Source of the DNA: Ptychodera flava
Lineage: Eukaryota > Hemichordata > Enteropneusta > Ptychoderidae
Reading direction: 5' to 3'
Assembly: GCF_041260155.1 (NCBI RefSeq)
Contig: NC_091946.1
Span: 21,120,353-21,184,352, forward strand
Length of the DNA stretch: 64,000 bases
In this document: in pieces, positions 14,632-58,956 of the stretch
How positions within the stretch are numbered: the first letter of the stretch is position 1
How the letters are laid out: each line of letters begins with the position of its first letter
Notes under the pieces: generated by a model
The model's input: only the letters and a program-made list of their open reading frames with translations
Told to the model about the DNA's origin: nothing
Database searches by the model: none
Program-made: the position numbers and the translations under genes

Positions 14632-14880
14632 GCTTTACTTTGGTTGAGCGAGCGAGGCAGGTTCGTGCCTCCTTTGGTATATATTTGGCAAACAAAGTGG
14701 AGATCCTATTTCAGCAAAACTGAAAATTCGTGTGGGTAAAATAACTGCGTTCCTTCAAACACGGGACCGTGCTTCAAAAGAGTCCACGACCGACGCGACC
14801 AACTAGGATGTGTACTGTTGAGCACTATGTTGTGAGTGGTCCATGTAAGCGAACTTCCGGGTCCCTTTAAAACGCTTTCG
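14632..14880 (-). promoter_or_regulatory. Candidate TATA-less promoter of RHBDD1-like gene
   Basis: Immediately upstream of the start codon. It contains ACTTCCGG (14853-14860), the reverse complement of the ETS/GABP core CCGGAAGT, in a more GC-rich stretch with no TATA box, as in many housekeeping promoters. The assignment rests on position and one motif only. Confidence 0.4.
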
Positions 14881-17289: not shown

Positions 17290-18934
<1,645 letters not shown>

Positions 18935-20641
18935 GTTAATTTTGACCTAACAGTTCGTAAAATAAGCGTCATCATGATTGTGTAGGCATCTTGTATCTTG
19001 ACGAGCAACATTACGGATATGGAAAAGCCTATCCGTGCCTATGGGATCACTGCAAGATCATTGTACTGGCTGTGACTTTCATTTGATAGGATACACTATT
19101 TTGAATCACCAAGATTTGTATTTAAAAGGAATAGGAAGAGACGTTTCATCCTTAAAGAAGAAGCTTCTCCCGACAAAGAATACTCAAATTTGCTTGTATA
19201 CGTATTAAATATGCGGTGACATTCGGTGCGATAGCGTTAAAAAAGCATAGAGAAAAAAAAAACATCGGTGGCTGAAACTGATTGTCCTGGAACACAGATG
19301 GTTTCAACTTTGTCAAGTAACTTCTTTGGAATCATTCAAAAACTGTTTGGAAGATAAATGGAACTTCTAAGATATTCCGAATATTCTGCCAAGAGTTACA
19401 AACACTTCACTAAAAATCAACTGGTAGTAAAATTGGAAGGGAGATTGTACTTGCCAGTGAAGAAAATATTTTCACGAGTCCATCGCTCGAGGGCGCTCCC
19501 TACATTTCCCTGCTCTGTCGACTGTGCCATGTGACCATAATGTGACACATGAATGATAGCTTAGACCCACCCATATGTACCCTGCTTTTACATGATTAGG
19601 CTATAGAGAGAGCTTTCTGAGGAGTCACCGCTTTGCGCTGGAAAGGTGTTCTGACTTCGCTGATTGCATCAGGGCATGCATAATATAATTAAATGAACAG
19701 TGTTCTCCACTGATAATTATTATTATCATACAATTTGCATTTTCGAACTTTCATCATTAATATGCTTTGCATAAATGAATAAACTACGTTACATTTCAAC
19801 AGTCGATGGAGAAAAATTGAACGAAAGCGAAGAGTTCAATTCGCAACCATAAAAAATGAATAGATGATAATAAAATCTGTACAATAGAAGAACCTTCCAT
19901 TGACTCTTTGGCAAACCGAGACCATTTCTAACTTGCCCTTTAAGGTTGAAACCATGTTCTTCTCGTGTGTTAGGTGCAGTAACTATGAGGTTGCTTAGGT
20001 ATGGTTCCCGGTTACGACAGAATTAGAGTATTTTTGCTTATTGAAATCATTTTCTGTTTCTATCGTTGCTGATGTCGTCAGGTATGTCCACTTGTTACAT
20101 GCACGTCTAGTGTCGCTTAGTGTTTTTATCATGGGACATCACCTGTCCTCACCTATCCATATGTAGCCCAGATAATTCGTCTAATACGCCCAGGTATATA
20201 AATCTTACTGAGCTTATGTACTGACCTCTTCCATATAATTTCTTCAATGTCTTCATTCCGACTACTTAACACCGAGATTCTTGATTCAATAAACGCATGA
20301 GCATAACTCTTGTTGGTATTTTTTTCCGAACGAAACATTGAACCCCGCCTCTTCTATATCAGCACATCGGTAACGGCCACCAGTCAGTATTGATACCATA
20401 CTTTGTGCTCTACAAGCTCTACAGCTATAAGTATGCAAGTGTTGGCAAGGGGTCAGTTTCCACAGATAAGGAGTTCCATTCTGAGAAATGTTTATCGGGC
20501 CGCTTGCCAAGAAGGGCCTGTTCACTGCGCCAGTAGTACAAACCTATAAACAGTGCCTCGACAACTAAATCGCAGCCAAGGCACTCAAGATCGCGCTGAG
20601 AGCGCCTCAACAACTAAAACAGCATTGTATTTGCCTAAAAC

Positions 20642-20948
20642 ATGAACACGCAATCGGGTCGCATTTCCACCTTGAATGCCGCGATAGGCTCGACGCCGAA
20701 GTCGGAGCAAGGCAACAGCCAACGCTGGCATAATCCGAATATTTTCAAGATCGCCATCGCGTTGGTCATAGCACTGTCAATATGGGCCTCAATACTGAGC
20801 GTTGTGGTTTTCACCATGCAAAACGAAATGGCAAGCGGTCGTCGCCAGATTCTGCAACTGTCGAGTGAATTTTTGGAGTTACGGGAGAAGTGTTGCACAG
20901 CTGACCTTACATCGAGGCCATTGAAGTTCTCTGTTGAGACTGACTATG
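20642..20948 (+). CDS. EDA-like copy 1, exon 1 (5' part): cytoplasmic tail, TM, stalk
   Basis: Residues 1-33 are a polar cytoplasmic tail. Residues 37-59 ([20 protein letters not shown] and on) form the single signal-anchor helix. The stalk follows, with adjacent cysteines (EKCCTADL). The exon is colinear with copy 2 exon 1 (57451-57768) with about seven residue differences. It is cut after GACTATG by the 4.3 kb element; reading straight into the element meets a stop nine codons later. The remaining exon end, CGCTTGAAAAG and its donor, lies at 25260-25270. Confidence 0.93.
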
Positions 20949-23900
20949 TAGTCAGGCAGCCAGTGGGGTAAACTTGCTTTGTGGTCTTAAGTTTTTTTCT
21001 TGGTGGATTTCGTTTGTCAAGACCACCACGAAAAGAAATATAATTACTGGCCCTCTGTCAGCATTGAGCAATTTGAGAAAATTAGCATAATCAAAATGGC
21101 CGCCAGCTTATTGCACTTTGTATGAGAAAGAAGACTCAAATGGCTTCATACATAGTGTTACTTTGTTTTTCTCGTTCAATCACCAAGCAGGTGCTAACGG
21201 CAAACTGGAACATAAATGTTGGCATATATTATTTGAGTGACATGCTAATTTGCATAATTTCAAAATGGCGGCAAGCTGTAAACAATTCTTTGTTAAGCGT
21301 AACTCTACATTATTATCATTTACTGTACTTCGTGCAGTTATTTTAACACAGCACGTACATAAACTTCTTTTTCTGTTGCAAATTTATGTTCATAATCAGA
21401 CATGTAAGCAGCCGAATAGTTAAGCCTTCGCCCATTTTCGAGTACTTGTCTGTTTACTTGTAAAAAGATATAACTGATGCCGACAGTGTTCTGGTAATTG
21501 TTTTTCACTCTGCCAAGAGCCTCCGTTATGTTTCTAAGTAAGTTAGTGATCTTTATGCCTTTGCTGAAACCAACCTGAGTTGTGATTTTCTAACCCGAAT
21601 CAATGATTAAGTAAGGTGGGAACTTTTTCCTAGCTCGACTATCACTGCATTTTATGTACATTTAAAAAAAAACGTTGTGATTTACACTACTTTCGAGGTT
21701 GATATGGAATCTGCTGACGTCACATTGAATCCATGATTAGTCACACTTTGTGTATCAGAAAAATACTACGGGTTTGGAGTACAATAACTTATACTGTAGA
21801 AGATATTTCCAAAGTTACTCGGGTTCTCTAAAGGTGAAAGGGAAGGTGGCTCAACGCACCATACTATTTTTGAGGATGTTCAGTTTTTTCGTATGTTACT
21901 CTAAATATGTGTATTTTTTTTGGGGGGGGGGTTTAATTTATTTTTGGATGTACTATGACGTCGTTCGGTCTGTAGTGTCAAAATCATTTGTGATCCATTC
22001 AACATGCATTTCGAAACTCTTAAATGTGAGTTCTTCTTCAGTCTCTTAATATTGTTATCCTTATTTTGTTCGTGTATGACCTCTAGAATTACATTTGTTC
22101 ATTTAGTAACGAAACTATTATTGATATATTTGGATCTGAATCCAATCCAGTGTGAGATTGTATATTTGTATTGTCTGTGTATGGCCTGTTTTCCTTTGGA
22201 TGTTGTTGAACTTTTTTGTTCTTTACTTAATGTGTTTATTTGTTTGTTTTTCTCCTTTTCGTTGATCCTTTGCGTTGATTTTGGCTCTTACTACAAGTAA
22301 TTCATCTTTTAACTTTTGTTTCTCTTGTATGCTATTATTGGTTTTTCAGGGAACAAAAACTGAAGACGTTCATCGCTTTCAATTATTTTCCATTTCATTG
22401 TTAGTGCTTTTATATCGTTTGTTCTAATTTGTGGACTGTATTTGGTTGCGTATGTATATTACTTTTGTTATTTATTGATTTTTTCCTAGTTTGAGGTACG
22501 ATTCGCACTTTGTGTGCCCGACCTCCCTATTTCTGATTGTGCGATTTCTGTGGTCTTATAACCTTGTTTTTGTTTTGTTTTTGTTTTTTGTCGTAAATTC
22601 AACTTTCTTGTCAAAGTCTTGGTTATTATTATATGTTGTTACACGGGCATATCTCAGCAATTTACCTTAATTAAACCAGTAAAAATACCTTTTTGGGTCG
22701 CACGAGTTTCTGGCTAGATATTGAAATGGTCTGTTATTTTGGTGTGAGTTTTTGTGTCGAGAGTTCTCCCTTTATTGTATCGTTGACTTTGTAAATCATT
22801 AATGACACTTTGAGGAGAATACTCTATTGTAAATTTGAAAGTTCAGTGTAACTTATTGATGTTAGCCATAAATTCACATTCAGCTCAGTTTCTGTTCCCG
22901 CATAGATCATGGAACATCATCTCTGAAATCGTTTCCAAAAGGAAGTCTGCTTCTGTGTACTTTAATGACCTCGGTTTCAAGGTTGTAGAATGTTGTACCA
23001 GCGATTTCCGGCGAAACTGGTGAACCCAGGCTACAGCCACAAATCTGTTGGTAGACGTTTCTGTTAAATTCAACCGTGTTATGTTGCAGAATTATTGTTG
23101 GTAATTCTTTAGTGGAACGCTTCGATCTTTTCTTTATATTTTACAGCTGTAATTGATAGTTGATACTGAATCAAGTGCGTTTGTGACAGCTTGCTTCAGT
23201 TTGTGGAGTATTTGTGTACATCGAGATTACATCCAGAGTGACTAGTAATGCATTATGTTGTATTGTTATCTTGCTTAGTTTGTTGGTAAAGTCCGTTGTA
23301 TCTTTAATGTACATTGGCTGGTTTTGTACAATCAGTTTTAAGAAATAGTCTATCTTATGTATTCCGATATTTTGTGTGTTGGGCTAGAGCAGCCACAAAT
23401 AATTGGACCGTGACGACAAATGAATTTTGCTGATGCTGGTGACTTTTTGATATGATATGAGTGGATACTGCGTTGGTGTGCATATTATGTGTATTCAAAG
23501 GATCATGATATTTGAACGTATCATTTGTCTATTTGTTTATTTTAGTACATGTCCGTGTAGTTTTCTGGTCGTGTTGTCGCTGTCATTTACATGCACTTTT
23601 GTATAGTAATCTTTTTGGCTTAAAAGTCTGTGACTTTCGTCAATGTAATCTGTTTAATTTGATATTGCTATTCCATTTCCCCTGCCTTTATCTAATGGTT
23701 TATGATAAATTCCTGGTTCAATTTGATAGTGTTTAAATGGCATTTTTTCTGCCTATGTTATGGTAGATTTGGTTGTGTTGAAATGAATTTCGGAATTTTC
23801 CAGGGATAAATTTTAAGCCTCTATTCAATGTTATTTCAGGAGTTAATAGTTTAACACAATTGGAACTAATTTGGGATAATTGGATGGTGACGTAATGTCG

Positions 23901-26900
23901 ATTTAATCTTCAAATGTAATCTAATCTGCTTTTCTTTTATATTACACACTTGTTTTTATAAGTAATTTGTGATACTGCAACATAAAGCTATATGGCACCG
24001 AACACTTTTCAGAAATTACCAAATATGAAAATCCAGTTATCCCAAATTAGTTCCAATCATGCTGTTCATATTCCGAGAGATATTTTAATACATTTAGAGT
24101 TCTTAGGGATTTGTATTTGGTACGCCTGTGTGTGTCTTATTTTTTGTTTGTTTCTTTAATTAATTCTTTTCTTTTGCTTCCAGTATCAGAGAAGATTTCC
24201 TCAATCTGTTAAATTTTCTCTTATTTTGAATATGATGGCCTGGCCATTGTATTTCAATAGTAGTTCTTTGGCTGAAAAATTTGGTGGCCCTGAAAAAGAG
24301 CCCTTTGGTTTGGTTTGGGGAAGTAGTTTTTTGTACGTAACAACTTATATTTTGAGTTTATATGTAAGTTGTTATTTGACTTCTTCTTCTAAACGTCCGA
24401 GGAGCTTCTTTGCTTGTTGTATTGGTCTCTTTCTGTTAGAGATATTATTCCTTGTAAGACTGTTTTGGTATATTTCATTTGCCAGTTATTGGACCGGTTA
24501 TATTTGTGTTCGGGCACGTGTATAATGTTGAGAGAGGTGTATGAAACACGGAGCCTACTTTTACCTCGTTGTAGACTATGATGTCCCAACACTGCGTCCA
24601 AAATTATAGAAGACGAAAATATTAAACATATTACGAGTAAGATAGGAAAACACTGAATATCCACAAAAATAGTAGGGTGTGTGGAGCTGCCTTCCCCTTT
24701 GCCGCACCAAGTCATTTAGCATTCATTGTAGCTTGTTTATAATCTACTTTGGTACAGTTCAAGCTTTCCTATAAAATATGGTTTATGTGTTAATTATGCA
24801 AATTAGTATTTAAATTTATTCATGTATGATTACTAACCTTATTTTAGTTGAAGCACTAGTAGAAATGTGCTTTTACAAGCAGACTTTAACAATATAAAGC
24901 CTACTTCTACTGCTTCCAATGGTAATTTGTGATAATTTTGTGTTAATTTATGCAAATTAGCATTTAAATTTATTCATATATGATAACTAACCTTTTTAGT
25001 TGAAGCACTAATTAAAACAAATTAAAGCAAAGCAAATTAAAACAGTATAAAGCCTACTTCTACTGCTTCCAATGGTAATTTGTGATAATTTGGCGGCCAT
25101 TTTGTTTATGCTAATTATCTAAAATTGCTCAATACTGACAGAGATCCAGTAACTATTTTTTCACTTTGGTTATCTTGACTAGCAAAATCCGGTTTAAAAA
25201 AACTTAAGACCCTAAAACAAGGTTCAGGACAAAAAGTGGATTTGGCTGCCGGACTAATGCGCTTGAAAAGGTTTGTATATGGTCTCTCCTTTAAATGTAG
25301 CTAAATAATAGTAAAACTAGTACATTGTTTGTTTTCGTAAAATAAAATTTAGCATAGGCGAACTCGACACATTCTTTTAGCGTCATCTTGCAAAAGTCCA
25401 TTGTAAGCATCCTAGTACATGTACTTTTTAAGAATGATAGATGGTTGACCAGAAGCTTTGTTTTGTCTACAGTCTCAACCAGAGTCAAATAACTGGAAAG
25501 ATGGCGATCACGATGACGATGGCCATTTTCGCGAGGTCAAAGGTTACGACCATCGAGCTCAGCTCATTCAGGATCACCGTCAGAAGCGAGAGGAGGGACA
25601 TGCATTGCTCGGCGATACACAGGCCAGTCAAGAGCAACCAACAAACCGTTTTCAAGAAATAATATCGAGAGGCCTAGGCTTTTTTACAAGTAAGTATGTC
25701 AAACTCATATTAGGTGTTTTGCATGAGGGCATGGAGCACGTTCAAATTTAGGGGGACAAGCGGAGGGACAGTGAAAGCTGTTTGCAACTAGTACTGTCCT
25801 TACCAGAATCCTTATGCCGTCCAGCCCACTGATTTTTGTTTTTCCTTTCCTGCCTACCGGAAAAGCTCCCAGTTTCAAAAGCCCCCCACCGCCGTTCTCC
25901 CTCACTACCAAGCTTCTCTGCTCCTCCCCACATGAATTTGCAATACTACACCTCGGTAAACTTTATTCCAAGTTGTCCACTGAGTAAAAGAAATAAAATT
26001 CACCCTTACGATAGAATAGCCATTTCTCGCCCGCAGATAGGAGAAAAAAAATCGCCAATGCTCTCGCCACGAAACCGCTCTTCAAGACAATTTTACACAA
26101 ACAGTTTATTTTCTTGCGCCCGACCCGACCTGACGTCGACCCCGTGCCGCCCTGTACTCGATCCCGAAAAAAAAACGTATGTGTAATCCAGTACGAGGAC
26201 CTCTTACACTTACTCCCGACTTCCCAACCGAAAAGGGGGCTTATGAAGTGTGGTGTAACTGCGAAGTTCGAAAACATTCCTCTCCGTTTTAAATGATATG
26301 ATTATTATGGTTCCAAATACTTACATAATCTCATCGTAAACCTTCTCACCTCGAATATTGCGTCATCAGTCGTATCATTTTGGCCTTTGCTTTTGATGTA
26401 TTTTCTAGTATTTTTGTTTTGTCTGTCTGTCATGTTCTACTGAGTCTCACGTTTAAATGTCTAATGTGTAACTCTGTCAACACAACCTGTATGTGTGCAA
26501 TACCAAATATAATTGTTGGCACGTGAATTTAGTTAGGACAAGATCACTTCATCAGCAATGACAATGCAAATGTACCTGTTTTTTAGAAATTCAGTAAAGT
26601 TTCGATCGTATTCGAACTTGCAACCAAAGTCTGTCACAACGTATGACCACCCAGTCACCTAGCGAAGACATCACAGTCAAAACAGTATAACGGCAATATT
26701 ATCCACAGCCGTATGGGCAGTTGCCCGTATCCTATAACTATCTAAAATATTTCTATTCCACAGCTATTAGAGAGAAGAGTGTGGGACCAAATATTGAACG
26801 ACAGAAAGAAAACAGAACAGGTTAGTATTGAAAATCAGTTAGAATTCATCTCGACATTTTAGTAGCATCTTGTAGAGAGATAAACTTTTGCAACATATCA

Positions 26901-30185: not shown

Positions 30186-33100
30186 AAGGATATTGTGGAA
30201 GCCTAGTTGCTGAAGTACATGTATTCCAGTTAAGAACTATTCGTCTTCTATGAAATGAAACATAGAAAGATAGAAAAAATCCAGCATCATTAAATTATTT
30301 ATTTATTTAAATTTATTATTTACCTTCTATCCGAATCTGATACTCTGATGGAAAAATGCCTTTTTGCGTAAAACTCCACCCTTTCACTCCCTTCAAGTTT
30401 TTAACATGCTCATTTAAGTCTGATATTTCAAATCAAAATTACACTGAAAAGTGCTCTCCTCCTACTGATTTTAGTTTCTTTGTCAAAGATAGTTTCAAAA
30501 GGTGTAACACTTCATTGTCGAAACATCTTCGGAGTCAATTGATTCTCTGTGCTTTATAGATTGCATAAATATCAGACATACTTGGGCCGCCATCCTTGAA
30601 ACTACCTACTAAAGTTTTGCGAGAATTTGAACCATTCCTGAAAAGTGTTACATCTTTCATCTTCTGCTCATCAGAGTTACCGAGTTTGGTCAAATCAACA
30701 CGGGAAAGATCAAAATGCAGTTTTGTTTTATTCAACCAAACTATTCGTTCAAGACACACAAAAGATTGTAAACCAAGGGAAAAATCACATAAAACGTACA
30801 AGAATATTTCGAGACGTTAAAGTCTGCTTAAAACATAAGCCATGCACACTCGACCTTTGTCTTTGTTTTACATCTCCTAATACGAGTTCACTCTGTTGTT
30901 GATATCCTTGTTGGGCTGTTACTTCAAATAAGCGCGCCCATCCTACTAACACCTGTATCGGGAAAATCGATCCCACACTCACAGAAACAATCCCACACTG
31001 TGTGTAAACGCGCATACACGAAAGCGGCATATATAACACGAGTTCTGATTGGATAATAAACGGCCTTTCGCTCCATGTGCAAAATATTATCCAATGGCGC
31101 GATGCCCAGAACTACAAAGTAATCAGGTCACAATGCAGAGGCAGACGTCAGCGTTGTCACGATTTTGGATAATGTTGTACTTCGTCAGTGACAGACTCAA
31201 ACAGAATTTGAAAGAGGAATATATTTTTTACAATAACCCTAACGGGATTCGAACCCCCACATACTCACGGCAACGTAACGTCGCCTGGCTGCTAGGCCTC
31301 ACACAAAACCAGGAAGAATCGCCAATATTCCGCTCGTTAGCATAGCGTGTGACCTGATATAAATTTGGGATTATATTTCGTGACGCGGAATAGTATATGG
31401 CAACGAAGTAGGATAGTCACTGTTGATATAATCATTTAGTGTTTCGAGTGTGAATTTAACGCATTTTGTGGTCATGTGAGAAAAAGTATCTCACACACTA
31501 AGGACCTGGAATCAGATTTCTCACACTCGTTGGGGAGAGATATCTGATCCCATGTCTTTGGAGGTTTGAGATTCTATTACTCCCACCGCGGGGGTGCAAA
31601 CTGTGTCCGTATGGTTATTGTTATTTTTCTTTATCTTTGATGACTCATGATGAAACGGAATCGTTCTTGATCCATGGACATTAACTGAACATCGAATAAA
31701 ACAATAGTTTTCTGCTAAGTGACTACAGGCATAGGTATCGTTGGAACTTCATAAAATTGTGTATCTATTCGTCCATCTTTGTATAATGTTTACTTTAGTA
31801 TCCACGTGCTGTCTAAATGAGAAAGAACCATCACCACATACACAACCTTTAAAACAACCATTGCTATTGCTCAAGGTCAACATCAGCAAGTTCACAAACA
31901 ATTTTAAAAACATGGGAACTTGAATGTGAAAGAGTACTTCATACTTATCAACGTAATATGTCTAAACCAAGGTCCTCCAGGTCCCACCGGACCGCCTGGT
32001 CCCGTTGGATTCACTGGTCCCAAGGGGGAGCCCGGAAAAGAGGGTCCAACTGGCTTACCAGGAAGAGATGGAGATCCAGGACCACCCGGTGCACCTGGGG
32101 CGAAAGGGAACTCAGGACCGAAGGGAAAAAAGGGTGAGTCAGATACAGAAGAAAAGGGAGAAGTCTTGGTGTCTGTCACTATGGAAATACTTATTGCACA
32201 CCTTTCATCGTATGATTTTGATTTCAAAACCAAGGACAAAATTCACACAATGAATGAATGAATTGGATTTAACTGAGGTATATAGAGGAACGATTTTCGT
32301 TACATTCATTGTACCAACCATTGGTGTTGTTTCCTACGTTTGTTGGACAAATCAATACATGATTGCGTGATAAGTGCAATTGAAGCTATTTCTGCTCCAT
32401 GAACAATCAATCGGTCAATATCAAATTTGAGGTAGTTGCATACCAATTAAATAAATTACCCCATAAACAGTTTTAGCTCTCTTATAGTATAGAACAAGAA
32501 GCGCACAAGCAATCACAAATTATGGCATTACAATCACTCGAGATAAATATCAGTGTCATAGATAAAGAAGCTATTGTGTGAGCATCGTGCACTTTATAGG
32601 TAATAAGTGCCTCGCGAAATATATCTTTTGATACACACAAACCGAAGGCATTGGAAAGCTTATTTACTCCACCAGCCTTCAAAATGAGGCCACATAAGCA
32701 GCAGGCCGTAAAAATTGTTTAAGTTTTAGTATCCAAAACAACATGTCCGTGGAGTGCATTCTGTTTTAAAGAGAACCCTCACTCATTGACTTATTTTGTC
32801 TACGCTAAGGTTCTCCTGGTCCAGTAGGTCCAGCGGGACCTCCTGGCCGTAGGGGAAAGTCCGGGGGAGCAAGTTTGGGTAAGTCTCTATGGGCTCGTCT
32901 TACAACAGCTTTTACAAGCATAGTAGGTGGGGGGAGCATCTGATCTGATATTGGAAAACTACAATGAGGTCATGCTTTTTTTTAAAATGCTACAGACGGT
33001 CCTTTATTTTAAAAGTCTAGTTTCAGTGTAAAGAATCATTCAAGGAAATAAAGGTGTTTTCATTCTCATAATTCAGTACACTGTGGTCGGAATACAGTCC

Positions 33101-36100
33101 ATGTGCTTTCTGTCTTATAAACTTGTCTTCCTGCTTGTCTTACAATAGCTTTTGCCAGTAAGTAGGCAAGGCACCTTCTTCGCATGCTATGGCTGAACTA
33201 AGGTTTAAGCTATGAGACATGGCATAGCATATACCTTATGCGTGGACCCATATATAAACACGAAACATGTGTGATACTTGACATAACTTTGATTACTTTT
33301 ACTGTTACAGGTGAACCTACTTCAGGAGGTGGAGTAAGTATAGCTCAGTTCACTATTATTTCTCCAAAACCGCCACATCGGTTCTTCTCAAAGGATCGCA
33401 CTGTGGTCACTGAGAACGCAGTCCTACGCTCAATCGCTTGCGTGTTTTCATTTTTAGCTCACATTTGGTGTACCAATGTGAGGTTATCGTATAAGCTGAA
33501 TCAGTTCATTTGCATCTGATTTGCATGTCTGTATGTCTGTATATTTGTGGGTATGTGCGGATGTATGTCCGTCACACACAAAGGCTCCCATACCGCCAAA
33601 GCTACCATCTCAGTATTTGGTGTACAGGTAGATGCAGGGGTTGAGATGTGAATTTGTTCAAATGAACACATCAGTGTCAAAAATGTGCAAATGAGGTAAG
33701 AAAAAGTGAAATCCTGCAAATGTGCAGGAGGCATGCCTGAGTGAGAAACATGCAAACTCCACTGATCTTGAGTCATTTCCTGTCATTGTTTATGAACTGT
33801 TACATATTAACAGACCAGCTGCAACCATAGACAGTAGATGGGGGAAGACCGTTTATACTAAACTAAGAGGGGCTTGTTTCTGCTATGCATGTTGCTAAGT
33901 TGACCTCCAGTACCTAAAGTTAGACCTTAATTACTTTTGTCATTCTTGTTTTTCTGGTTTAAATATTTCTTGTTGTTTTTCTGGTTGTACTGTGCAGAAA
34001 TCATTGCCATAACATCAACATAGAATTTTCCTCCACTGAACAGATAGAAACAACATTTATTCTTGATCATTGGTAACCCATACTGGTATATACCAATTCT
34101 GATCAAATTTGAGCGGTATTTTTAATAGTGTCAATTCTGCATGACGTTTATCATTTTATTGCTTGTTGTTTATTGTTTCGACTTCTGCACTAGACATAAC
34201 TGAATGTGAACCGTGATTGAGTACAAGATAATGAAATTTTCACTTAACAAACGGTTGCCAACTTTGTTCATAGACGTTTGGCAGTACACAAAGTCACAGA
34301 AACAGAGAAAGTCCACAACCAAAACGAGTGACTTCATAAAGTTACATTTTTTGTGTGTGTTTGTTTTTACCAGCTACTCTCTGCCCATTTCGAAGGCGAC
34401 AACGAAGCAGCCGTGCACACCGGCCCACGTGAGTGTCATTCGTGACTCTCAGCTTCACGTCGATTGACTCGTTTTATTCATTTTGTTTCACTAGTTGAGC
34501 ACCGTAGCAGCTCATTTCGTGGGCGATATCGAACTAGGAGGTTCAATACGGATTGAAGGTAAGGGCGCCACAGTTGCCGGACGGTTGGACTGGGTTCTCA
34601 GCTTGTGAAAAGTGTTCATATTTTAAAGAAGCAGTAGCGTTCTTTCTCTACTCCCCAAAGCATGTTGAAACACAAACTAGTTCGTAAACACAGCGCCTAT
34701 GTATGTGTGTACAATGTACTGTCATTGTTTACATTTGAATTCTAGTCCGCCGGACCAGAATCCACTTGTCTCTTAGCTTTGTAGTTCATTATACTTTAGG
34801 GAGGAGAATAATGATGAAAAGTGGTGAAATGTCACCAAAAGTATAGCTGCAGTTTCTATATATTTGTAAAGTTTGACCTAGAGGTAGCATCTTTTCTAAT
34901 ATTCATGTATACTCTGCACGCATTGCGTTGGCAAGATCTGTGGCTCCAACTTAAAACTAACAAATAAGAAGGTAGTCTGTTGCAAAACGATAGGAGAGAG
35001 AGAAAAACAATAGTTTCACCTTTGTTAACTTCCTTGTAAGTTTCACCAACCCATTTCGGAGTAAACAGAATAAAAAAATTGAAAACTAAGCACCATCTGG
35101 TGTCATAAGTAGTTTTAACATATATCTTAAAGTATTATTTGAGAAGTCCAAGATTTTGTTTTAATTTCTACTCACCATATTCCTAGTTCGCAAGCTGTTG
35201 CATAGAGTCTCTATCAAATAACAGATTTCAATTTTGCTATCATTGCTGAATAGCTAGACACATTTAGTCGAATCGCCTCGAGCAATATCTTTTCACACTT
35301 TGCATCAGTGCAACACTAACAATAAAGTTTTGTTTCGCCTTCAGGTTCGGTAGAGCATGTATTAATAGTATGATACAGCTTCACTTTATTATTGGGTAAT
35401 TTCAGTTTTCGATCAACTAATCCTTTGAATTTTGATTTTCCCCCATCAGAAGATGGTACAATTAATTTCTGGAAGTTTGCCGACTGGATGAGTGAATCTG
35501 ACCAGCATAAATTCGCAAAGAATGAAGCCGGAGAAATTACGGTGCAAGAGGGCGGATTGTACTATGTATACAGTCAGGTAAAGGTCATTCAGTGGAATGC
35601 TGAAAATAAATAACTTGTGAATTTTTCCAACTGTGATTCAAGGAGCCCGAAATGTTACTTTTTACAACGTTATCGTTGTTAATGAGTTAATAACAGTTTT
35701 CAGGTCTGCTCCCCAAAATGTTTGAACACCCGACGTTATCATTAGACTATACTTGCAAGATACATTTGAAACTGATAAGCTACTTTCTGTCTGTACTTAA
35801 AGACATTTATCAACCATATCGAGTGCGTTAAAAACAAAGAAAGACGAGACGATTTTACAAGTTTTGTTAGCTAGAACTCCACAGAACATCGTGCTTGGTG
35901 ATGTTCAACATCGTGCTCGGTGATGTTCAACATCGTGCTTGGTGATGTTCTTAACTTACATGTACATATGAGTTAAATTTGACTTTTCAATTCATTCCTG
36001 CAAAAAACAACAACTTACGTTATTTTCTTCTCTTTCCTTTGTCTATTCTTTTAGGTAACGTATAGCGGTAACCATTTTCTGGCCCAGTACATTAAAGTTG

Positions 36101-36771
36101 ATGGTGTGATGATTTTCAGATGTAGTAATTATATCCATGGTTCAGAGCCACAGATCAACTCTTGCCATACGGGAGGCCTTGCCGACCTGGAGACCGAATC
36201 TGAAGTTGAAGTCGTTGTTCATTTCGTGTCTGAAGTTCAACACAGCCCTCAAACGACCTTTTTTGGCCTAATTAAAATTCAGTGATAGGTTCGGAGGAAA
36301 ATACATTTCGTAGAAACGTAGATATAAAAGAAAAAAGCAATAGTTCACTACGTGAAGTGTATGTTGGAGAGAAGTTCTAAGAAAGGCAGCGAGTGAGAAT
36401 TGCCCTTAAAATTTTTAGAGAGAGATAGTATGGTACTTTGCGAAGTGAAAGAGTACACAGATGGAGGCTAAAACATAACAGGCAAAGTTTATCCTAGCCC
36501 AGGAGCCCTAAACATGACAACATGTCTTATCTGCTTCCAGGTGTTATATTACGATGACAAGAATATGAGCCATGCCGTACATATCAATGACGAGCCGTTC
36601 CTGTCCTGTACCCACACTGCCATTTCAGGGGCGAAGTATAACACGTGCTTTACAGGCGGGCTGACCAGATTACAACACGGAAGCAAAGTCAGAGTTTTCA
36701 TACAGTTTCCCAACCGTATCATCAACATGAGCCGCGATAGCACGTTCGTCGGGTTGGTCAAGCTCTCCTGA
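20642..36771 (+). CDS. Ectodysplasin-like TNF ligand, copy 1 (exon 1 interrupted)
   Basis: Type II membrane ligand of the TNF superfamily, EDA type: cytoplasmic tail, one transmembrane segment, stalk with furin site, collagen repeat, C-terminal TNF domain. The ordinary exon set is: 1 (20642-20948 plus 25260-25270, split by an insertion), 2 (25473-25689), 3 (26764-26820), 4 (27056-27091), 5 (31972-32133), 6 (32810-32878), 7 (33311-33333), 8a (34374-34428) or 8b (34495-34558), 9 (35450-35577), 10a (36055-36285) or 10b (36541-36771). Phases agree at every junction. Without the insertion the product would be about 434 residues. An in-frame TAA lies six bases upstream of the ATG. In vertebrates EDA signals through EDAR or XEDAR to NF-kB in ectodermal development; here only ligand identity is supported. 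Because of the exon 1 insertion this copy may be inactive, or may use another first exon. Confidence 0.9.
22000..24600 (-). mobile_element. Penelope-like retroelement relic
   Basis: Minus-strand translations show Penelope-type reverse transcriptase blocks: [12 protein letters not shown] ... [20 protein letters not shown] (around 23600-23740), [10 protein letters not shown] and [14 protein letters not shown] (around 23200-23330), and [20 protein letters not shown] (around 22990-23060). Several breaks make it inactive. The ends are approximate. It is nested inside the 4.3 kb TIR element and itself carries a MITE (23853-24062). Confidence 0.75.
23853..24062. mobile_element. MITE with GGGATAATTGGAT termini
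   Basis: About 210 bp with inverted ends ATTGGAACTAATTTGGGATA. A second family member lies at about 48247-48452 in the upstream flank of copy 2. Both are non-coding. Confidence 0.85.
24783..25090. repeat. 152-bp tandem duplication inside the TIR element
   Basis: Two copies share ATGCAAATTAG, TTTAAATTTATTCAT, GTTGAAGCACTA and a repeated end, CTACTTCTACTGCTTCCAAT. They lie next to the right terminal arm. Confidence 0.85.
25473..25689 (+). CDS. EDA-like copy 1, exon 2: stalk with furin site
   Basis: In-frame exon between CTACAG and GTAAGT. It is acidic and charged ([19 protein letters not shown]) and then contains [13 protein letters not shown] is a furin consensus, placed between the membrane and the collagen repeat as in vertebrate EDA, and would release a soluble ligand. 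The site is conserved in copy 2. It contains one acidic repeat unit where copy 2 has three. Confidence 0.92.
26598..26690 (-). repeat. tRNA-derived SINE-like fragment
   Basis: On the minus strand, GCTAGGTGACTGGGTGGTCA resembles an A box and GCAAGTTCGAATACG a B box, spaced as in tRNA promoters. The homologous sequence sits in copy 2 at 59243-59337, so it predates the duplication. Too degenerate to be a tRNA gene. Confidence 0.55.
26764..26820 (+). CDS. EDA-like copy 1, exon 3
   Basis: A 57-nt exon (phase 1 to phase 1) encoding [18 protein letters not shown], basic and polar, after the furin site. It is nearly identical to copy 2 exon 3 (59388-59444). Acceptor CCACAG, donor GTTAGT. Confidence 0.9.
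27056..27091 (+). CDS. EDA-like copy 1, exon 4 (micro-exon)
   Basis: A 36-nt exon encoding [12 protein letters not shown], found because both it and its splice sites (CTACAG, GTATGT) are conserved in copy 2 (59672-59707). Its phase 1 end joins the collagen exon in frame. Confidence 0.85.
27183..27517. mobile_element. 335-bp Harbinger-like MITE in intron 4
   Basis: Inverted ends GGCC(CC)CAAAAAAGAAATG and AGAAATGTTTCTG, with TAA target duplication (27180-27182, 27518-27520). It is absent at the homologous position in copy 2, so it came in after the duplication or is polymorphic. Confidence 0.85.
27773..27807. repeat. (CTGT)n microsatellite
   Basis: About eight TCTG units directly upstream of the 146-bp satellite. 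Confidence 0.95.
27830..29320. repeat. 146-bp satellite array in intron 4
   Basis: About nine diverged tandem units. Marker AAAGTTGACGAAAC-like sequences near 28112, 28252, 28383, 28529, 28677, 28825, 29052 and 29198 recur at 131-148 bp, except one interval lengthened by a 79-bp internal duplication. Each unit has GCATATTTAATGAAC and CCTAATTAGG-like parts. It is AT-rich and non-coding. Confidence 0.9.
29321..31971. other. Remainder of intron 4
   Basis: No coding exon seen. It contains an (AAAT)n run at 30122-30186, a tRNA-like B box on the minus strand near 31240 (GGGGTTCGAATCCCG), which suggests a SINE at about 31225-31320, and a dispersed repeat at 31433-31545 whose inverted relative is at 60477-60597. 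Confidence 0.6.
31225..31320 (-). repeat. tRNA-derived SINE-like fragment
   Basis: The minus strand carries GGCCTAGCAGCCAGGCGACG (A-box-like) and GGGGTTCGAATCCCG (B box) in tRNA-like order. The acceptor stem does not fold as in a tRNA gene, so a SINE head is more likely. Confidence 0.5.
31972..32133 (+). CDS. EDA-like copy 1, exon 5: collagen repeat
   Basis: A 162-nt exon encoding exactly 18 uninterrupted Gly-X-Y triplets, beginning [18 protein letters not shown] and ending GNSGPKGKK, with splice phase 1 inside the Gly codon at both ends. In EDA the collagen segment trimerises and multimerises the ligand. The unit size is one used by many collagen exons (54 or 108 or 162 nt). Confidence 0.97.
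32810..32878 (+). CDS. EDA-like copy 1, exon 6: collagen repeat end
   Basis: A 69-nt exon continuing the collagen frame with [20 protein letters not shown], then leaving the repeat. Phase 1 to phase 1, donor GTAAGT. Confidence 0.95.
33311..33333 (+). CDS. EDA-like copy 1, exon 7 (23-nt micro-exon)
   Basis: Encodes GEPTSGGG as the linker between collagen and TNF parts. It converts the frame from phase 1 to phase 0, which both versions of exon 8 need. Sites are GTTACAG and GTAAGT. It is short but fully consistent. Confidence 0.8.
34374..34428 (+). CDS. EDA-like copy 1, alternative exon 8a
   Basis: Encodes [18 protein letters not shown]. It begins in phase 0 and ends in phase 1, exactly as exon 8b does. 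It shares AHFxGD with 8b and aligns with the first strand of the TNF domain (VHLQGQ in human EDA). Acceptor with a strong pyrimidine tract (TTTTTACCAG), donor GTGAGT. Using 8a and 8b together would break the frame, so they should be mutually exclusive. Confidence 0.8.
34495..34558 (+). CDS. EDA-like copy 1, alternative exon 8b
   Basis: Encodes [20 protein letters not shown] and E, the alternative start of the TNF domain, phase 0 to phase 1. Only 66 nt separate its acceptor (TTTCACTAG) from the exon 8a donor; a candidate branch sequence (ATTGAC near 34462-34467) would sit too close to that donor for the two exons to be spliced together. Confidence 0.85.
35450..35577 (+). CDS. EDA-like copy 1, exon 9: TNF domain core
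   Basis: Encodes [20 protein letters not shown] and onward through [22 protein letters not shown], corresponding to the human EDA segment that contains LEVLVDGTYFIYSQ. The exon ends in phase 0 after Tyr-Ser-Gln. The donor CAG|GTAAAG is followed by a second GT six bases later (exon end 35583), which would add Val-Lys. Confidence 0.95.
35885..35950. repeat. 22-bp tandem triplet in the intron before exon 10a
   Basis: Three units of AACATCGTGCTTGGTGATGT plus TC, with one difference in the middle unit. Lies about 105 bp upstream of the exon 10a acceptor. Confidence 0.95.
36055..36285 (+). CDS. EDA-like copy 1, alternative terminal exon 10a
   Basis: A 231-nt exon, phase 0, with its own stop: 76 residues starting [17 protein letters not shown], with the paired cysteines of EDA (FRCSNY ... 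NSCHTGG) and ending [10 protein letters not shown]. This is the C-terminal half of the TNF jelly roll, including loops that contact receptors in known TNF complexes. Acceptor CTTTTAG with a long pyrimidine tract. Confidence 0.93.
   Translation, partial: VTYSGNHFLAQYIKVDGVMIFRCSNYIHGSEPQINSCHTGGLADLETESEVEVVVHFVSEVQHSPQTTFFGLIKIQ
36541..36771 (+). CDS. EDA-like copy 1, alternative terminal exon 10b
   Basis: Also 231 nt, phase 0, own stop: [18 protein letters not shown], then [20 protein letters not shown] and [16 protein letters not shown]. It resembles vertebrate EDA more closely than 10a does (human has PFLQC, NYNTCYTAG, INMSKHTTFFGAIRL). Acceptor CTTCCAG. Same length and same cysteine spacing class as 10a point to exon duplication. 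Confidence 0.95.
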   Translation: MLYYDDKNMSHAVHINDEPFLSCTHTAISGAKYNTCFTGGLTRLQHGSKVRVFIQFPNRIINMSRDSTFVGLVKLS

Positions 36772-36823
36772 CAGTTAGGTCACACAAACGTCCCCTACCC
36801 CTACAACTTGACCACAACCCACC

Positions 36824-48452: not shown

Positions 48453-49666
48453 TGATGGAAGAGACGTTTTATCCTCAAAGAACTTGAAGGAACTTCTCCT
48501 GACAAAGAATACTCAAATTTGCTAGTATACGTATTAAATACGTGACATTCGGTGCGATAGAGTTCGAAAAAAAGCATAGAGGAAAATAAACAACATTGGT
48601 GGCTTCAACTGATTTGCTTTGTCCTGGAACAGAGGTAGTTTTTCAAGGAACTTATTTGGAATCATTCAAAAACTATTTGGAAGATAAATTGAACATCTGA
48701 GACATTCCGAATATGCTGCCAAGAGCAAAAAATTCTTCAGTGTATATCAACTGGTAGTAAAATTGGAAGGGAGATTGGACTTGCCAGTGTAATATTTTCA
48801 CGAGTCCCAAGGTAGACTATATTGAAGGTCCATCGCTCGATGGCGCTCCTTACACTCTCCTACTCTGTCGACTGTGCCATGTGACAATAATATAATGTGA
48901 CACATGAATGATAGCTTAGATCCACCCATATGTCACAACAGAGGGGCCGCAGCGCTTTCAAAAGATTAGTCAAACTTCCATTTTGACAAAGAGGGACACA
49001 TTCTTTGGACCGCAAAAATCAGAAAAGGGTTGCTCAAAGTAAAAGTCCCAAGTCGCATACTGAGCTGTTATGGAAGGCTAGGAATGGATCAATACCTTCG
49101 TGGGTGGGCGGTCAAAATTACAACACACTACATTTTCCGCGTTGCTATCTAACAATTTTAACGGATTTTACAAGGCATGGATAGTTTATACCCAAATGTT
49201 CAAATTGTTTTGACTAACCTTAACATGAATATTTTCTATGAAAGTGGTATAGTTGCCAAAATATTTTCGAAGCAAACTTTGCTCTGCAGGGATATATTTT
49301 AGTCTAAATGTATATTCGTTTTTATAAACAATTCAACTGATTATGAAAAGCATAAGTTGTACCCTCCTTTTACTTGATCAAGCTATATAGAGATCTTTCT
49401 ATAGAAATAGTCGCCACTTTGCGCTGGAAAGGTGTTCTGACTTCGCTGATTGCATCAGGGAATACGCAACATATTGAACGAAAGCGAAGTGTTCTATTTG
49501 CAGCCATAAAATCGAATGAATGGCAATAAAATAAGTTGAAATCTGTACTATAGAAGAACCTCCCGTTGACTCTTTGGCAACTCGAGACCATTTCTAACTC
49601 GCCCTCGAAGGTGCAATCTATGTCCTTCTCAGGACTATGAGGAGGTACTAGGTGTTGCCAAACATA

Positions 49667-52600
49667 CACTGTAAAAATAGCGGACGCTAGACGCGTCTTT
49701 ACGCGTTCAAAATGTACATGTCGGTGTTCAAATTTGAACGGCTAGTGTTCATATTTGTAACACTAGTGTTCATAATATTAACAATGATGTTCTAAACCTG
49801 AACACTATGTGTTAACAACGATCTCCTTCAAGTGTGCAAAAACTCAGCATCACAGAAATTTTACAATACTGTGAAACAATTAACAGTCTTTTGTGTTTTT
49901 TACTTTACTATGGCTATATCAAATTTACTATTGCTTCACTGTCCGGTAAACGTACACGGATTTTGGTGTAACGAATTTCACACTAAGTGAAAAATATTTC
50001 CGGCCTACAATTGCTGAAAGCATGTTTTTTCTAAAAAAGAAAGTATACAAAATAATTTTACACGTTTATTACGGGTTGAAAGTTTAAAAATTAGAAAAGA
50101 AAATCAGAAAACCACCATGAACGTTTTAATTTTAACATCGGCGTGCAAGAGGCGTTCTACTTCTAAACACTTGGTGTTCATGTTTGGTGTCTTTTCCTAT
50201 CCCATGATGCATCAAAACGGAAGTTGCGACATTTTTCTTGTAAGCGCACCCTGAAGTCGTGATCGTGCGGAAGCAAGACCAGAAAGGGTAAGTTTCCTCT
50301 CCAAAATAGTAAAAGGTATTAGATTTTTGAAGCGTCTATATTATCGTTCTTTGAAATTAATTGTATTGTACCTTGAAAGAGCTTAACTACGTGGAGAAAC
50401 CTTTTTTCTTTCAGTGGCTGCAATACCAACAGCTAGCTGTGACTACGCAGTGGTACTTTTGGCCATGGCCTATCGATCGATCTCACTCGGGTCAAGGGTC
50501 ATCGCAGCACAACTGTAGCGAAAACCCTTGACCTGAGCGCGATCGATACGCCTTGCATAGTACCGCTGCGTAATCACAGCTAACACATGCCTTTTAGTAA
50601 ACATATCGCATGTAAAATATCAGTTAAACATCGTAGAGTATATAATGTATTGTTTCAGCATATGAGAGTTTGGCTTTTTTATTTTAATCAGTTGCTGACA
50701 AGAATCAGCAAATATTTTGTAACAGTATTGAAGAGAGGCACTGCATATGAAAGTCTCCCCATTTCCTTAACCTAATCAGCCCCTTGTCTTTCATTTAAAG
50801 TCTCATCTCGCCATATTACCTATTGTTGCATTTTTTTCAGGATGTAAAAAGTTGGATTTAACTGAAAATCGAAGAGTTGTTATAGAAGCTGGTGGTACAG
50901 ATAACGAAGAAGATGAGTGTAGCTGTCTGGAAACAAGCTTGAGAACCTCAGTTCATCTCTAATGTAGATTTTAAACTTCCAAGGGCCAGTAACTGAATTT
51001 TGATAAATTTCTGTATTTTTGTTCTGAATTAATCTAAGCTTTGGTAGCATGCTATGATCAACTAAATGTTGCCGGAGAATAAGCTTTCACAGACGTGTAG
51101 TCTCCCTTATTTAAATTAAAGCTGAAAGCGACAGACCATTCAGAATAAAAATGTCCACTCTGAATTACTGACTTTTCTGAAATTTTCACTCTGAATTTTC
51201 TGTCACTTTCTGCTTCAATTTTTTATCCCCCTTGCATCTGATGAAGGAGACTTCACGTCTTTGAAAGCTTATGCCCTTGTAACATTTAGTTGATCATAGC
51301 CTGCTACCAAACCGTAGATTATTTTGTATTGTAGCTCAACACGTCCCCTGTACTTAGCAACTGGTTTTTAGCTTTGGTGTCAGCTAAACAGGTGGATGTG
51401 TAGCATTGTCCTCAAATTTGTACATCCAAAGGTTTTTCTTCAAAGCAACCTGTACGAATCCTTTAATATTTGGATTACAGGTCCCAAGGGATTACCCTAA
51501 TCAGATATGTTAAAATTATGATGAAATATGCAAATTTATATTTTTAGGCTAATTTTGCTATTTTTTGGCAAAAATTTTCTTCTATTTTACTGACGTCTTC
51601 AATATTTGGTAAACATGTCCCTAAAAATGACCTTAGTCAAATTTGTGGTAGTTGTGATGAAATATTCAATTTTTTATATTTCATGGCAATTTTTGTCATA
51701 TTTGGTCAAAAAATCTTTGAAAAGTCTTTTTCAAAACTGCTAATCGAACAGCTTTGATATTTAGGACATAGATCTCTACTGATAGTCTTTTTCAAATTGT
51801 TCAAATTATGCAGAAATTTGCTGCTTTGCATTTTTACGACATTAGGGATTACCAGAATGTGATATATTCAAGTTATGATGAAATGTACATTTTCTCCATT
51901 TTAAGGGTGATTTTTACCATTTTTGGTAAAAAAAAATTGTATAAAAATTAATAGCAGGGTAAACCAGAATTTGATAGGTCTTTATGAATATGTTTTAAAT
52001 TTCTGAGAAGTATATTATTGAAATGTCACCCATTTATTTCAGGGTTTATTTAAATATATATCAAACAAACAAACCTCTTTGTTTATGAAGGACTTTGTTG
52101 GACAAGGAAATAGCTTTTACCCTGCCAAGGACCACCTTTCCCCACTTTCTGCATGTTGTGCTTTACTGTGACACTTTGACAACTTGACATGTTGTGTTTA
52201 CTTTAGTGTTGACAACTATATACCATGTGAACCAGAGAAGCCTTGACTAACTTCTTTTTTCTTCAAAATTTACAATTGTCTATACAAGAGGAAATGTCTT
52301 CAAGAAACCATCTTACAGAAATAGTGTATGCATTTCATACATGTACGTCTTTTCAAGACAATAAGTATGCCAAATTTTGAGCTTTTTCGGATGACTTTTG
52401 TACGTTTTAAACAAGTATGAACATAAAACGTAATCCACAATATGGTGATTTTTATTGCTTATGTTTTTGATAGGAAGGTGTTAACACTGTTGGTTTTTTC
52501 CTCTGACAAACTTTACATACAAATTTGCAATGTTTATTTGCCCATTTTACAGTAAATTATTGTATTTTACTCTAGAAATGTTTCGTGTATTTTTAGAATA

Positions 52601-53015
52601 AAATAATTTTACTGGATATTAATGGTCTGTAATGTTATTTCAAGGCTTGAACACCCCGTGAACGCCCAAAATTAAAGGTGTTCAACAAGCGCGCATCATG
52701 TGTTCTAGCCTTTAACACACTTATCGTTGAACGGCGTCCATGCGTTCAAAAAGTGTTACAGCCCTTTGAACGCGTAAAAGCGTTCAATTTTTTGAACACA
52801 TTTCCTGTGCAACGTGTGTTCAGATATGGAACACCATGGTGTTCAATATAATGTCTGATGAACACGTAGCGTTCAAAATCTGCACACGTGTGTTCAAAAA
52901 TTGAACGTTGGTTGAACACGTAGTGTTAAATTTCTGAACGTCTAGAGGCGTTCAAAAAGTGTTACAAAAAGGCGTTTAATTGGTGTTCTATCCTTGAACA
53001 CTTAACTTTACAGTG
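49667..53015. mobile_element. TIR element A (3.35 kb) with motif-decorated ends
   Basis: Starts CACTGTAAAAATAGCGGACG and ends with TTTACAGTG. The 2-bp target duplication is TA. Both subterminal regions are crowded with GTGTTCAA/TTGAACAC motifs (right end about 52650-53010). The interior has no transposase frame. It contains two hairpin structures: 50430-50585, with GGGTCAAGGGTCATCGC facing CGAAAACCCTTGACC, and about 51035-51320. The homologous site in copy 1 (about 20005-20025) is empty. Confidence 0.9.
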
Positions 53016-53037
53016 TACTTGGTTCCCGGTTACCACA

Positions 53038-56000: not shown

Positions 56001-56832
56001 GAGAAGCCTTGACTAACCCTTTTCCCAGTTTGCAATTGTCTATACAAGAGGAAATGTCTTAAACTATCTTACAAAAACGGAGTAAACATTTCATACGAAT
56101 ACGTGTTTTCAACACAATAAGTACGTCAAATTTTTGAGCTTTTACAAAACAGATATTTTTGTACGTTTTTACAAGTATGAACATATAACGTAATCCACAA
56201 TATTGAAGTTAAACCTGTTTCGTCATTACTTTGTTCATATATTTTGAAAACGATCGACAGTGTTTATAAAGATTTTCTTTTGTTTATGTTTTGATAGGAA
56301 GATGTTTACACCGTTGGTGTTTTCCTCTGACAAACTTTACAAAGTGGCCATGCTTATTTTCCCATTTTACACTAAATAATTGTATTTTACTTAACTAATT
56401 TTTGTGTATTTTTAGAATAAAATAATTTTACTGAATATCAGTGGTCCGTTATGTTTCTTCCAGGCTTAAACACCCCCTGAACGCCAATAGTTAATGTGTT
56501 CAACAAGTGCATATCATGTGTTCAATCCTTTAACGCACTTATCGTTGAACGGCATCCATGCGTTCAAAAAGTGTTACAGCCCTTTGAACGCGTAAATGCG
56601 TTCAATTTTTTGAACACATTTCATGTGCAACGTGTGTTCAGATATGGAACACCATGTGTTCAATATAATGTCTGATGAACACATAGTGTTCAAAATCTGC
56701 ACACGTGTGTTCAAAAATTGAACGTTGGTTGAACACATAGTGTTAAATTTCTGAACGTCTGGACGCGTTCAAAAAGTGTTACAAAAAGGCGTTTAATTGG
56801 TGTTCTATCCTTGAACACTCAACTTTACAGTG
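53038..56832. mobile_element. TIR element B (3.8 kb), sibling of A
   Basis: Same ends and same internal order as element A, with a few percent to about ten percent divergence by eye plus extra interior sequence (about 55190-55720). Target duplication CA (53036-53037 and 56833-56834). Internal hairpins at about 53795-53945 and 54395-54700 correspond to those of A. Same orientation as A, only 22 bp of host DNA between them. Non-autonomous. Confidence 0.9.
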
Positions 56833-57450: not shown

Positions 57451-58956
57451 ATGAACAAGCAATCGGGTCGCATTTCCACCTTGAATGCCGCGATAGGCTC
57501 GACGCCGAAGTCGGAGCAAGGCAACAGCCAACGCTGGCATAATCCAAATATTTTCAAGATCGCCGTCGCGTTGGTCATAGCACTGTCTATATGGGCCTCA
57601 ATACTGAGCGCTGTGGTTTTCACCATGCAAAACGAAATAGCAAGCGGTCGTCGCCAGATTCGGCAGCTGTCTAGTGAATTTTTGGAGTTACGGGAGAAGT
57701 GTTGCACAGCTGACCTTATATCTAGGCCATTGAAGTTCTCTGTTGAGACTGACTATGCACTTGAAAAGGTTTGTATCCCTCCTTTAATTTAGATTATAAC
57801 AGTAAAACCGGTACATTACATATTCTCGAAATGCAAAATTTAGTGTAGGCGAACTCGACACACTTTCTTGGGCATCATATTGCGAAAGTCTAATGTAAGC
57901 AAACTGATAAGCACCCTTTTCAAAGAATGAACCATGGTTGACCAGACGATTTATTTTGTCTACAGCCTCAACTGGTCGGCGATAATGATGACTATGGCGA
58001 TCTTCAGAAGATCAAAGGTTTTGACATGAAAGATGGCGATCTTCGGAAGAGCAAAGGTTTTGACTATGACTTGAATGATGCCAATCGTTATGACGATGGC
58101 GATCCTCGGGAGGTCAAAGGTTACGATCATCGAGCTCAACAAGTTGAGGATCACCGTCAAAAGCGAGAGGATGGACATGAATTGCTCAGCGATACACAGG
58201 CCGGTCAAGAGCCACCAACAAGGCGTTTTCAAGAAATAATATCGAGAGGCGTCTTTACAAGTAAGTAGAGCATACGTTCAAATTTAGAGGAACAACAGTG
58301 AAAGCTGGCTGCAAATAGTACTGTCCTGTACTGTAGATTCCTTACGATTGTAAAATACCGTCCAGCCCACTGATATTGGTTTTTCTTCTCTCCCACCAGC
58401 CCTATCTCAATGTCAAAAGCCCGTCACCGAGGTTCTCCCTCACTACCCAAGCTTCTCACTGCCCCTCCGGTCCCCACATGATTTTGCAATACTACACCTT
58501 GGCAAACTTTATTCCAAGTTGTCCGCTGAGCAAAAGAAATAAAGTTCATCCTCCCTAGCAATATAAAAATAGCCATTTCTCGCCCGCAGATAGGGGGGAA
58601 AAATCGCCCATGTTCTCGCCACGAAACCGCTCTTCAAGATATTTTTACATCAAAAGCTGATTTTCTTGCGCCTGACCCGACCCGACCCCTTGACGCGCTG
58701 TACTCTATCCCGGGAAAAAAAACGTTCGTAGTGATAACTCAGTACAAGGACCTCTTACACTTCCTCCCGAAAAGTGTACTTGTGAAGTGTGACGTCACTG
58801 CAAAGTTACAAAACATTCGATTTCCTCTCCGTTTTAAAGTGATATGATTTTTACACCCCTGGTTCAAAATACTTACAAAATTGCATCGTATCGTTCTCAC
58901 CTCCAATATATGCGTCATCAGTCATATCATTTTGGCCTTTGCTTTTGATTATTTGT

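Follow-up and report, generated by a model that had tools for sequence, protein, structure and literature searches.

An ectodysplasin-type ligand gene with candidate alternative exons for two receptor-facing segments of its TNF domain

Organization of the locus

The window, by which we mean the whole 64,000-nucleotide stretch of DNA that was analysed, carries on its plus strand one ectodysplasin-type (EDA-type) gene that extends from exon 1 (20642) to exon 10b (36771) and that we refer to as copy 1. For exons 9, 10a, and 10b we kept the numbers of a preliminary description of this DNA, and the numbers 6 and 8 are unused. Splice sites were scored with a PWM built on consensus sequences, and their ranks are given as percentiles among the AGs or GTs of the window. 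The features of copy 1 are as follows:

20642..20967, plus strand: exon 1 of copy 1, with the ATG, the cytoplasmic part, and the transmembrane segment
25473..25689, plus strand: exon 2, stalk and furin-type site RQKR/E, phase 0 to 1
31972..32133, plus strand: exon 3, collagen Gly-X-Y repeats, phase 1 to 1
32810..32878, plus strand: exon 4, collagen repeats, phase 1 to 1
33311..33333, plus strand: exon 5, 23-nt linker exon, phase 1 to 0
34374..34428, plus strand: exon 7a, one of two versions of the first TNF strand; 55 nt, phase 0 to 1
34495..34558, plus strand: exon 7b, the other version of the first TNF strand; 64 nt, phase 0 to 1
35450..35577, plus strand: exon 9, TNF core common to all versions; 128 nt, phase 1 to 0
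35578..35583, plus strand: possible tandem donor, with a GT six bases past the exon 9 donor
36055..36285, plus strand: exon 10a, terminal TNF half version a, 231 nt including TGA, phase 0
36323..36328, plus strand: weak poly(A) candidate TATAAA after 10a, from a hexamer scan
36541..36771, plus strand: exon 10b, terminal TNF half version b, 231 nt including TGA, phase 0

The transmembrane segment of exon 1 reaches a Kyte-Doolittle maximum of 2.69 over 19 residues (residues 39-57), and we infer a type II orientation with an N-terminal transmembrane segment for the copy 1 product. The sequence RQKRE is present in exon 2 of both gene copies at this locus, with cleavage predicted from the motif, while the acceptor of exon 3 is weak (42.8th percentile). 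From exon 2 onward, full translations of 7a with 10a and of 7b with 10b both stay open to the stop. Assembled from exons 2 to 10b, with 7b, the product matched the Pfam families Collagen (52.2 bits, cut-off 27.2) and TNF (40.7 bits). The transmembrane segment, the RQKR site, the collagen match, and exon 9 bear out the earlier claim of an EDA-type ligand with common membrane, furin, collagen, and TNF-core parts.

Elsewhere in the window, an open frame with a Rhomboid domain lies at 14080-14634 on the minus strand (Pfam Rhomboid, 45.5 bits) and presumably resembles RHBDD1. A reverse transcriptase fragment is found at 3992-4438 on the plus strand (Pfam RVT_1, 62.3 bits), and a tandem repeat of about 400 bp occupies 62865-64000, up to the end of the window.

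Relationship to ectodysplasin

The TNF domain of copy 1 is homologous to that of EDA, and in a PDB search human EDA-A2 was the best single-domain match for both of its versions. Exons 9 and 10b together matched EDA-A2 at 4.3e-15 (58.9 bits) and EDA-A1 at 4.2e-14, far ahead of the other ligands (Eiger 5e-9, BAFF about 2e-8, TWEAK 3.3e-4), and EDA remained the best single-domain match once 7a or 7b was joined to 9 and 10b. With 10a the margin was narrow, as EDA-A2 (3.2e-10, 43.3 bits) and EDA-A1 (4.6e-9, 39.5 bits) were followed by Eiger (6.5e-9, 39.0 bits) and TWEAK (7.2e-9, 38.9 bits), with BAFF at 4e-7. The first line of the PDB tables was taken by 4zch, a chain of three APRIL/BAFF domains that together outscore EDA and singly scored 30-33 bits with 10b and 22-27 bits with 10a.

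The intron phases equal those of mammalian EDA at c.742, c.793, c.924 (or the A2 site), and both ends of exon 2, a comparison that is limited to these positions and in which the phase at the start of exon 2 was taken from copy 2. The mammalian positions come from the accessible portions of two papers, which give human EDA exon 6 as c.742_793 (52 nt, phase 0 to phase 1; PMC7010634) and place a 5' splice site at c.924+2 in cattle and exon 2 at r.385_487 in dog (PMC5015951). No relative of 9 and 10b was confirmed in viral contigs (3 pattern matches) or in bacterial and archaeal genomes (25 stretches), as expected for an animal gene.

Two versions of the terminal exon

The preliminary description had proposed two interchangeable terminal exons, and its coordinates, lengths, and phase proved exact: 10a and 10b are each 231 nt long, stop-terminated, and preceded by strong acceptors, which rank at the 99.6th and 99.4th percentile, respectively, of the 3354 AGs in the window. 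The 10a acceptor is the highest-scoring of the nine that were scored in the gene. The exon 9 donor (CAG/gtaaag) ranks at the 99.2nd percentile of the 3995 GTs in the window, and both 10a and 10b read in phase 0 after it. Each terminal exon also completes a TNF domain, as had been claimed, with Pfam TNF scores of 52.8 bits for 9 with 10a and 44.4 bits for 9 with 10b (cut-off 23); taken alone, 10a lies above this cut-off (28.1 bits) and 10b slightly under it (21.5 bits). The cysteine pair said to be common to both exons was recovered as well, and in both it aligns to C332 and C346 of human EDA.

The length of the open frame was rejected as proof of the two exons. A phase-0 frame of at least 231 nt follows 6 of 67 strong acceptors on both strands, with 10a and 10b counted among the six, so that open length alone is not decisive. 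The exons are identical at 22 of 74 aligned residues, and their similarity lies beyond neutral expectation: the BLOSUM score of 80 was reached in none of 5000 shuffles and in none of 5000 neutral simulations at equal distance, a simple model with one branch and no indels in which the frame stayed open in 93 of the 5000 runs. A comparison of substitution patterns, which had been suggested as a check, gave identity at 29, 48, and 23 of 75 codons (stop included) for the first, second, and third codon positions. The third position is the lowest, as for coding sequence under constraint, and this may be taken as a sign of purifying selection since the two exons diverged. An estimate of dN/dS was tried and dropped; synonymous sites are saturated (pS 0.92, dS undefined; pN 0.47), and therefore only the codon-position pattern and the neutral simulation were used to assess selection. 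A tblastn search of the window gave no third copy of exon 9, 10a, or 10b, the best other matches being at E 0.031 for 10a (minus strand, 17674-17763), 0.27 for 10b, and 2.0 for exon 9. Judging from their sequences, we consider it likely that both terminal exons are used in splicing.

By sequence, 10b is the more EDA-like version. It is identical to EDA-A2 at 26 of 75 aligned residues and 10a at 20 of 75; it has two N-glycosylation sequons at places like those of EDA's two, and 10a has none. The net charge is +3 in 10b and -5 in 10a, with +2 in the corresponding EDA segment. At the 3' side, a hexamer scan found no AATAAA between 10a and 10b, the first after 10b being at 37895. The poly(A) hexamers in or after 10a and upstream of 10b are only weak or overlapping: downstream of the TATAAA at 36323, G+T makes up 63% of both 36343-36372 and 36353-36382, and ATTAAA also occurs at 36271, where it overlaps with the end of the 10a coding sequence.

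The missing AATAAA would suit a gene in which a single terminal exon, most likely 10b, is used today and 10a was used formerly or is used rarely while still looking intact, and so would the absence of EDA sequons from 10a and its opposite net charge. However, 10a has kept an open frame and both cysteines, its Pfam TNF score alone exceeds that of 10b, its acceptor is the best scored in the gene, and the neutral simulation seldom left the frame open and never produced such similarity. We regard the use of only one terminal exon as unlikely.

Position of the terminal exons on the receptor contact surface

In the accessible portion of a report on the human EDA-A1 complex (PMC9918506), contact with the receptor (EDAR) is described as predominantly electrostatic. 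The same text names Y310, Y311, K340, T341, and Y343 as contact patch III and Q256, S258, A259, Q261, D265, and D273 as patch II, which is said to give most of the electrostatic contacts in the human complex (PMC9918506). The patch III residues named there fall within the terminal exon of the gene described here, where 10b keeps two of the five (Y311, Y343) and 10a one of the five (Y311), and human R289 is E in exon 9. By these comparisons, specific conservation of the EDAR contacts is weak. The terminal half had been put forward as carrying much of the receptor contact surface, and as far as the named residues go this stands in that the half includes human patch III, but it is only part of that surface, since most of patch II belongs to the exon to which 7a/7b correspond. 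By analogy with the human complex, we infer that isoforms with 10a and with 10b may have different receptors.

The junction between exon 9 and the terminal exons

The end of exon 9 aligns to Q306 of human EDA and both terminal exons start at V309, so that the intron sits at the two-residue switch between vertebrate EDA-A1 and EDA-A2. The preliminary description had noted that vertebrate EDA instead changes two residues, and the accessible parts of the EDA literature agree, giving these as V307-E308, at the same boundary as the exon 9/10 join here. A second exon 9 donor six bases on (AAG/GTCATT), at only the 90.8th percentile, would insert Val-Lys where human EDA-A1 has Val-Glu. We treat this tandem donor as a lead only for a two-residue switch.

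Intron 9 contains, at 35885-35950 upstream of 10a, three near-identical 22-bp units, each of which is an inverted repeat. This hairpin array was considered as a splice regulator and rejected, as it folds little better than shuffled sequence (z -0.94; 35 of 200 shuffles as good). Five pairs of inverted repeats were found in 33334-36800, none positioned to suggest a switch, and an Rfam search of the window returned nothing at gathering scores.

A probable second pair of exons

Exons 7a and 7b probably form a second pair of mutually exclusive exons, equivalent to human exon 6. Both run from phase 0 to 1 like human exon 6, and each joins exons 5 and 9 in frame; when the two are joined to each other, the frame shifts and a stop is reached. 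They are separated by 66 nt, while every other intron from exon 2 to exon 10a is at least 432 nt long, and their splice sites rank at the 97.6th and 99.0th percentile (7a) and the 92.1st and 99.9th percentile (7b). The similar core of the two exons spans only about 8 codons (AHFEGDNE in 7a, AHFVGDIE in 7b). The Pfam TNF score did not rise when 7a or 7b was added, and only the last residues of 7a/7b are reached by the PDB alignments with EDA, so position and phase are the main grounds for equating the pair with human exon 6. Residues 248-265 are encoded by human exon 6, among them five of the six patch II residues named in the accessible text (Q256, S258, A259, Q261, and D265), and D273 falls in the next exon.

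The pair might also be unreal, with 7a a chance pseudo-exon and only the terminal exons alternating. Of 1611 candidates across the window, one that is unrelated and on the minus strand equals 7a in local protein score against 7b (32), and the score of the 7a-7b alignment was attained by 19 of 5000 shuffled versions of 7a. Yet 7a combines a good acceptor and donor with a phase match and adjacency to 7b, no other of the 11 in-frame AG..GT candidates in the intron matches 7b as well (32 for 7a versus 15 for the runner-up), and at the DNA level the match of 7a to 7b was equalled by none of up to 4000 randomly sampled 55-mers, those overlapping 7a or 7b having been skipped. A pseudo-exon is a reading that we doubt while giving it some weight, and we favor a true pair.

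Tandem gene copies and the insertion in exon 1

Copy 1 is the left gene of a tandem pair, and the further features at this level are the following:

20949..25257, no strand assigned: 4.3-kb insertion inside the end of copy 1 exon 1, with inverted terminal repeats; exact ends placed by eye
57451..57768, plus strand: exon 1 of copy 2, uninterrupted, ending in phase 0 at AAG/GTTTGT
57966..58260, plus strand: exon 2 of copy 2, with RQKR furin-type site

The two copies are identical at 96 of 102 residues in exon 1 and at 51 of 70 aligned residues in exon 2, and 20018-20948 is 91% identical to 56833-57757. No TNF exons (tblastn) or collagen exons (Gly-X-Y runs of six or more) of copy 2 were found in the window, and these probably lie beyond its right end. 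Exon 2 of copy 2 has extra internal residues that are partly repeated. Directly upstream of copy 2, the segments 49663-53015 and 53034-56832 are tandem duplicates of 3.4-3.8 kb, with piecewise identities of 83-90%.

Since 10a and 10b have diverged much further than the two gene copies have, the exon pair is, by sequence, probably older than the gene duplication. The tandem duplication of the locus could also be read to mean that 10a and 10b are the last exons of two genes, or of decayed copies, lying side by side. However, the two exons are only 255 nt apart, a second exon 9 was not found in the window, and the identity of 22/74 between 10a and 10b stands against 96/102 (exon 1) and 51/70 (exon 2) between the gene copies. 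We hold such an origin from two genes to be very improbable, and treat 10a and 10b as alternative exons of one gene.

The match of copy 1 to copy 2 ends at 20948 and picks up again at about 25252, on either side of the insertion. Its inverted repeats (20970-21111 and 25085-25224) are 79% identical, and a 3-bp target duplication (ATG) is possible by eye. A minus-strand frame within the insertion (23171-23383) gave no Pfam match and, by eye, presumably resembles a Penelope-type reverse transcriptase. The original end of exon 1 and its donor (CGCTTGAAAAG/GTTTGT, the donor following 25270) are located after the insertion. The frame is kept when the insertion is spliced out between 20967 and each of three right-end AGs that were tried, but the pyrimidine tracts of these three acceptors are poor by eye, and copy 1 may therefore have gained a new intron or have a broken mRNA.

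Copy 1 could thus have been broken recently by the insertion, copy 2 being the working gene and the paired exons being inherited and no longer expressed here. The contrast between the uninterrupted exon 1 of copy 2, ending in phase 0, and the inserted 4.3 kb with inverted ends in copy 1 fits such a history, whereas the downstream exons of copy 1 are open and the insertion is removable in frame, albeit with poor tracts. Even if it were true, the exon pairs would predate the break and may exist in copy 2. On balance we find a broken copy 1 improbable.

A model of alternative receptor-facing segments

We propose, with reasonable though limited confidence, that this locus encodes an EDA-type ligand in which two receptor-facing TNF segments each exist in two alternative exon versions, so that the isoforms would differ in receptor choice or affinity. 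From one pre-mRNA, either 7a or 7b would be chosen, with exclusivity enforced by the short gap and the frame, and either 10a or 10b would be chosen by competition between two strong acceptors, each exon having its own stop. Transcripts with 10a would end at the weak poly(A) signal before 10b or carry 10b as 3' untranslated sequence. The products would have the anchor, furin site, collagen stalk, and TNF core (exon 9) in common and would differ in their receptor-facing segments. Mapped on the human EDA-EDAR complex, as far as its accessible description goes, the 7 pair would cover most of the named patch II residues and the 10 pair patch III, and for this reason the isoforms should differ in receptor choice or affinity. 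The model predicts that both junctions are used and regulated, and the human complex is what suggests receptor switching. Due to the 4.3-kb insertion in exon 1, the copy 1 mRNA is possibly not made as drawn.

A more elaborate version, which we find conceivable but somewhat doubtful, is a combinatorial 2 x 2 ligand with separate exchange of the two main contact patches, a possible further two-residue switch at the exon 9 donor like that of vertebrate EDA, and a tandem copy that may multiply the set. Ligands addressed to different receptors would then be built on a single anchor, stalk, and trimer core.

If the model is true, whole-exon alternatives at the intron of the vertebrate switch, along with a second pair over the other contact patch, would suggest that this intron is an old site of receptor switching, and the locus would offer natural patch swaps with which to locate the part of a TNF ligand that determines receptor choice. 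A search of the open-access literature with few terms, judged by titles and the starts of abstracts, found no EDA gene or other TNF ligand described as having paired terminal exons, which is weak evidence of absence. In the accessible parts of the literature on EDA that was examined, no paired exons are described for vertebrate EDA.

Comparison with known systems

Eiger, BAFF, APRIL, and TWEAK share with the product described here a TNF domain and PDB matches, but their single-domain scores are below that of EDA, clearly so with 10b and narrowly with 10a. To our knowledge, Drosophila Eiger and vertebrate BAFF, APRIL, and TWEAK have no collagen stalk.

Mutually exclusive exon cassettes are known from Dscam, para, and tropomyosin. 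Like these, 7a and 7b are adjacent, similar, and of equal phase, with a very short intron between them and a frameshift on double inclusion. In contrast to these cassettes, which are internal, 10a and 10b are alternative last exons, and no regulatory RNA pairing stood out at this locus among the 5 inverted repeat pairs.

The vertebrate EDA switch, in which two residues decide between two receptors, is a classic case of splicing redirecting a ligand. The gene described here resembles vertebrate EDA in encoding a predicted type II membrane protein with a furin site, a collagen stalk, and a TNF domain, in the intron phases that were checked, and, according to the accessible EDA literature, in the residue boundary (Q306/V309) at which alternative splicing would take place. 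Vertebrate EDA changes two residues (V307-E308) at this boundary, whereas here the whole terminal exon is present in two versions, and the exon for the first TNF strand seemingly is as well.
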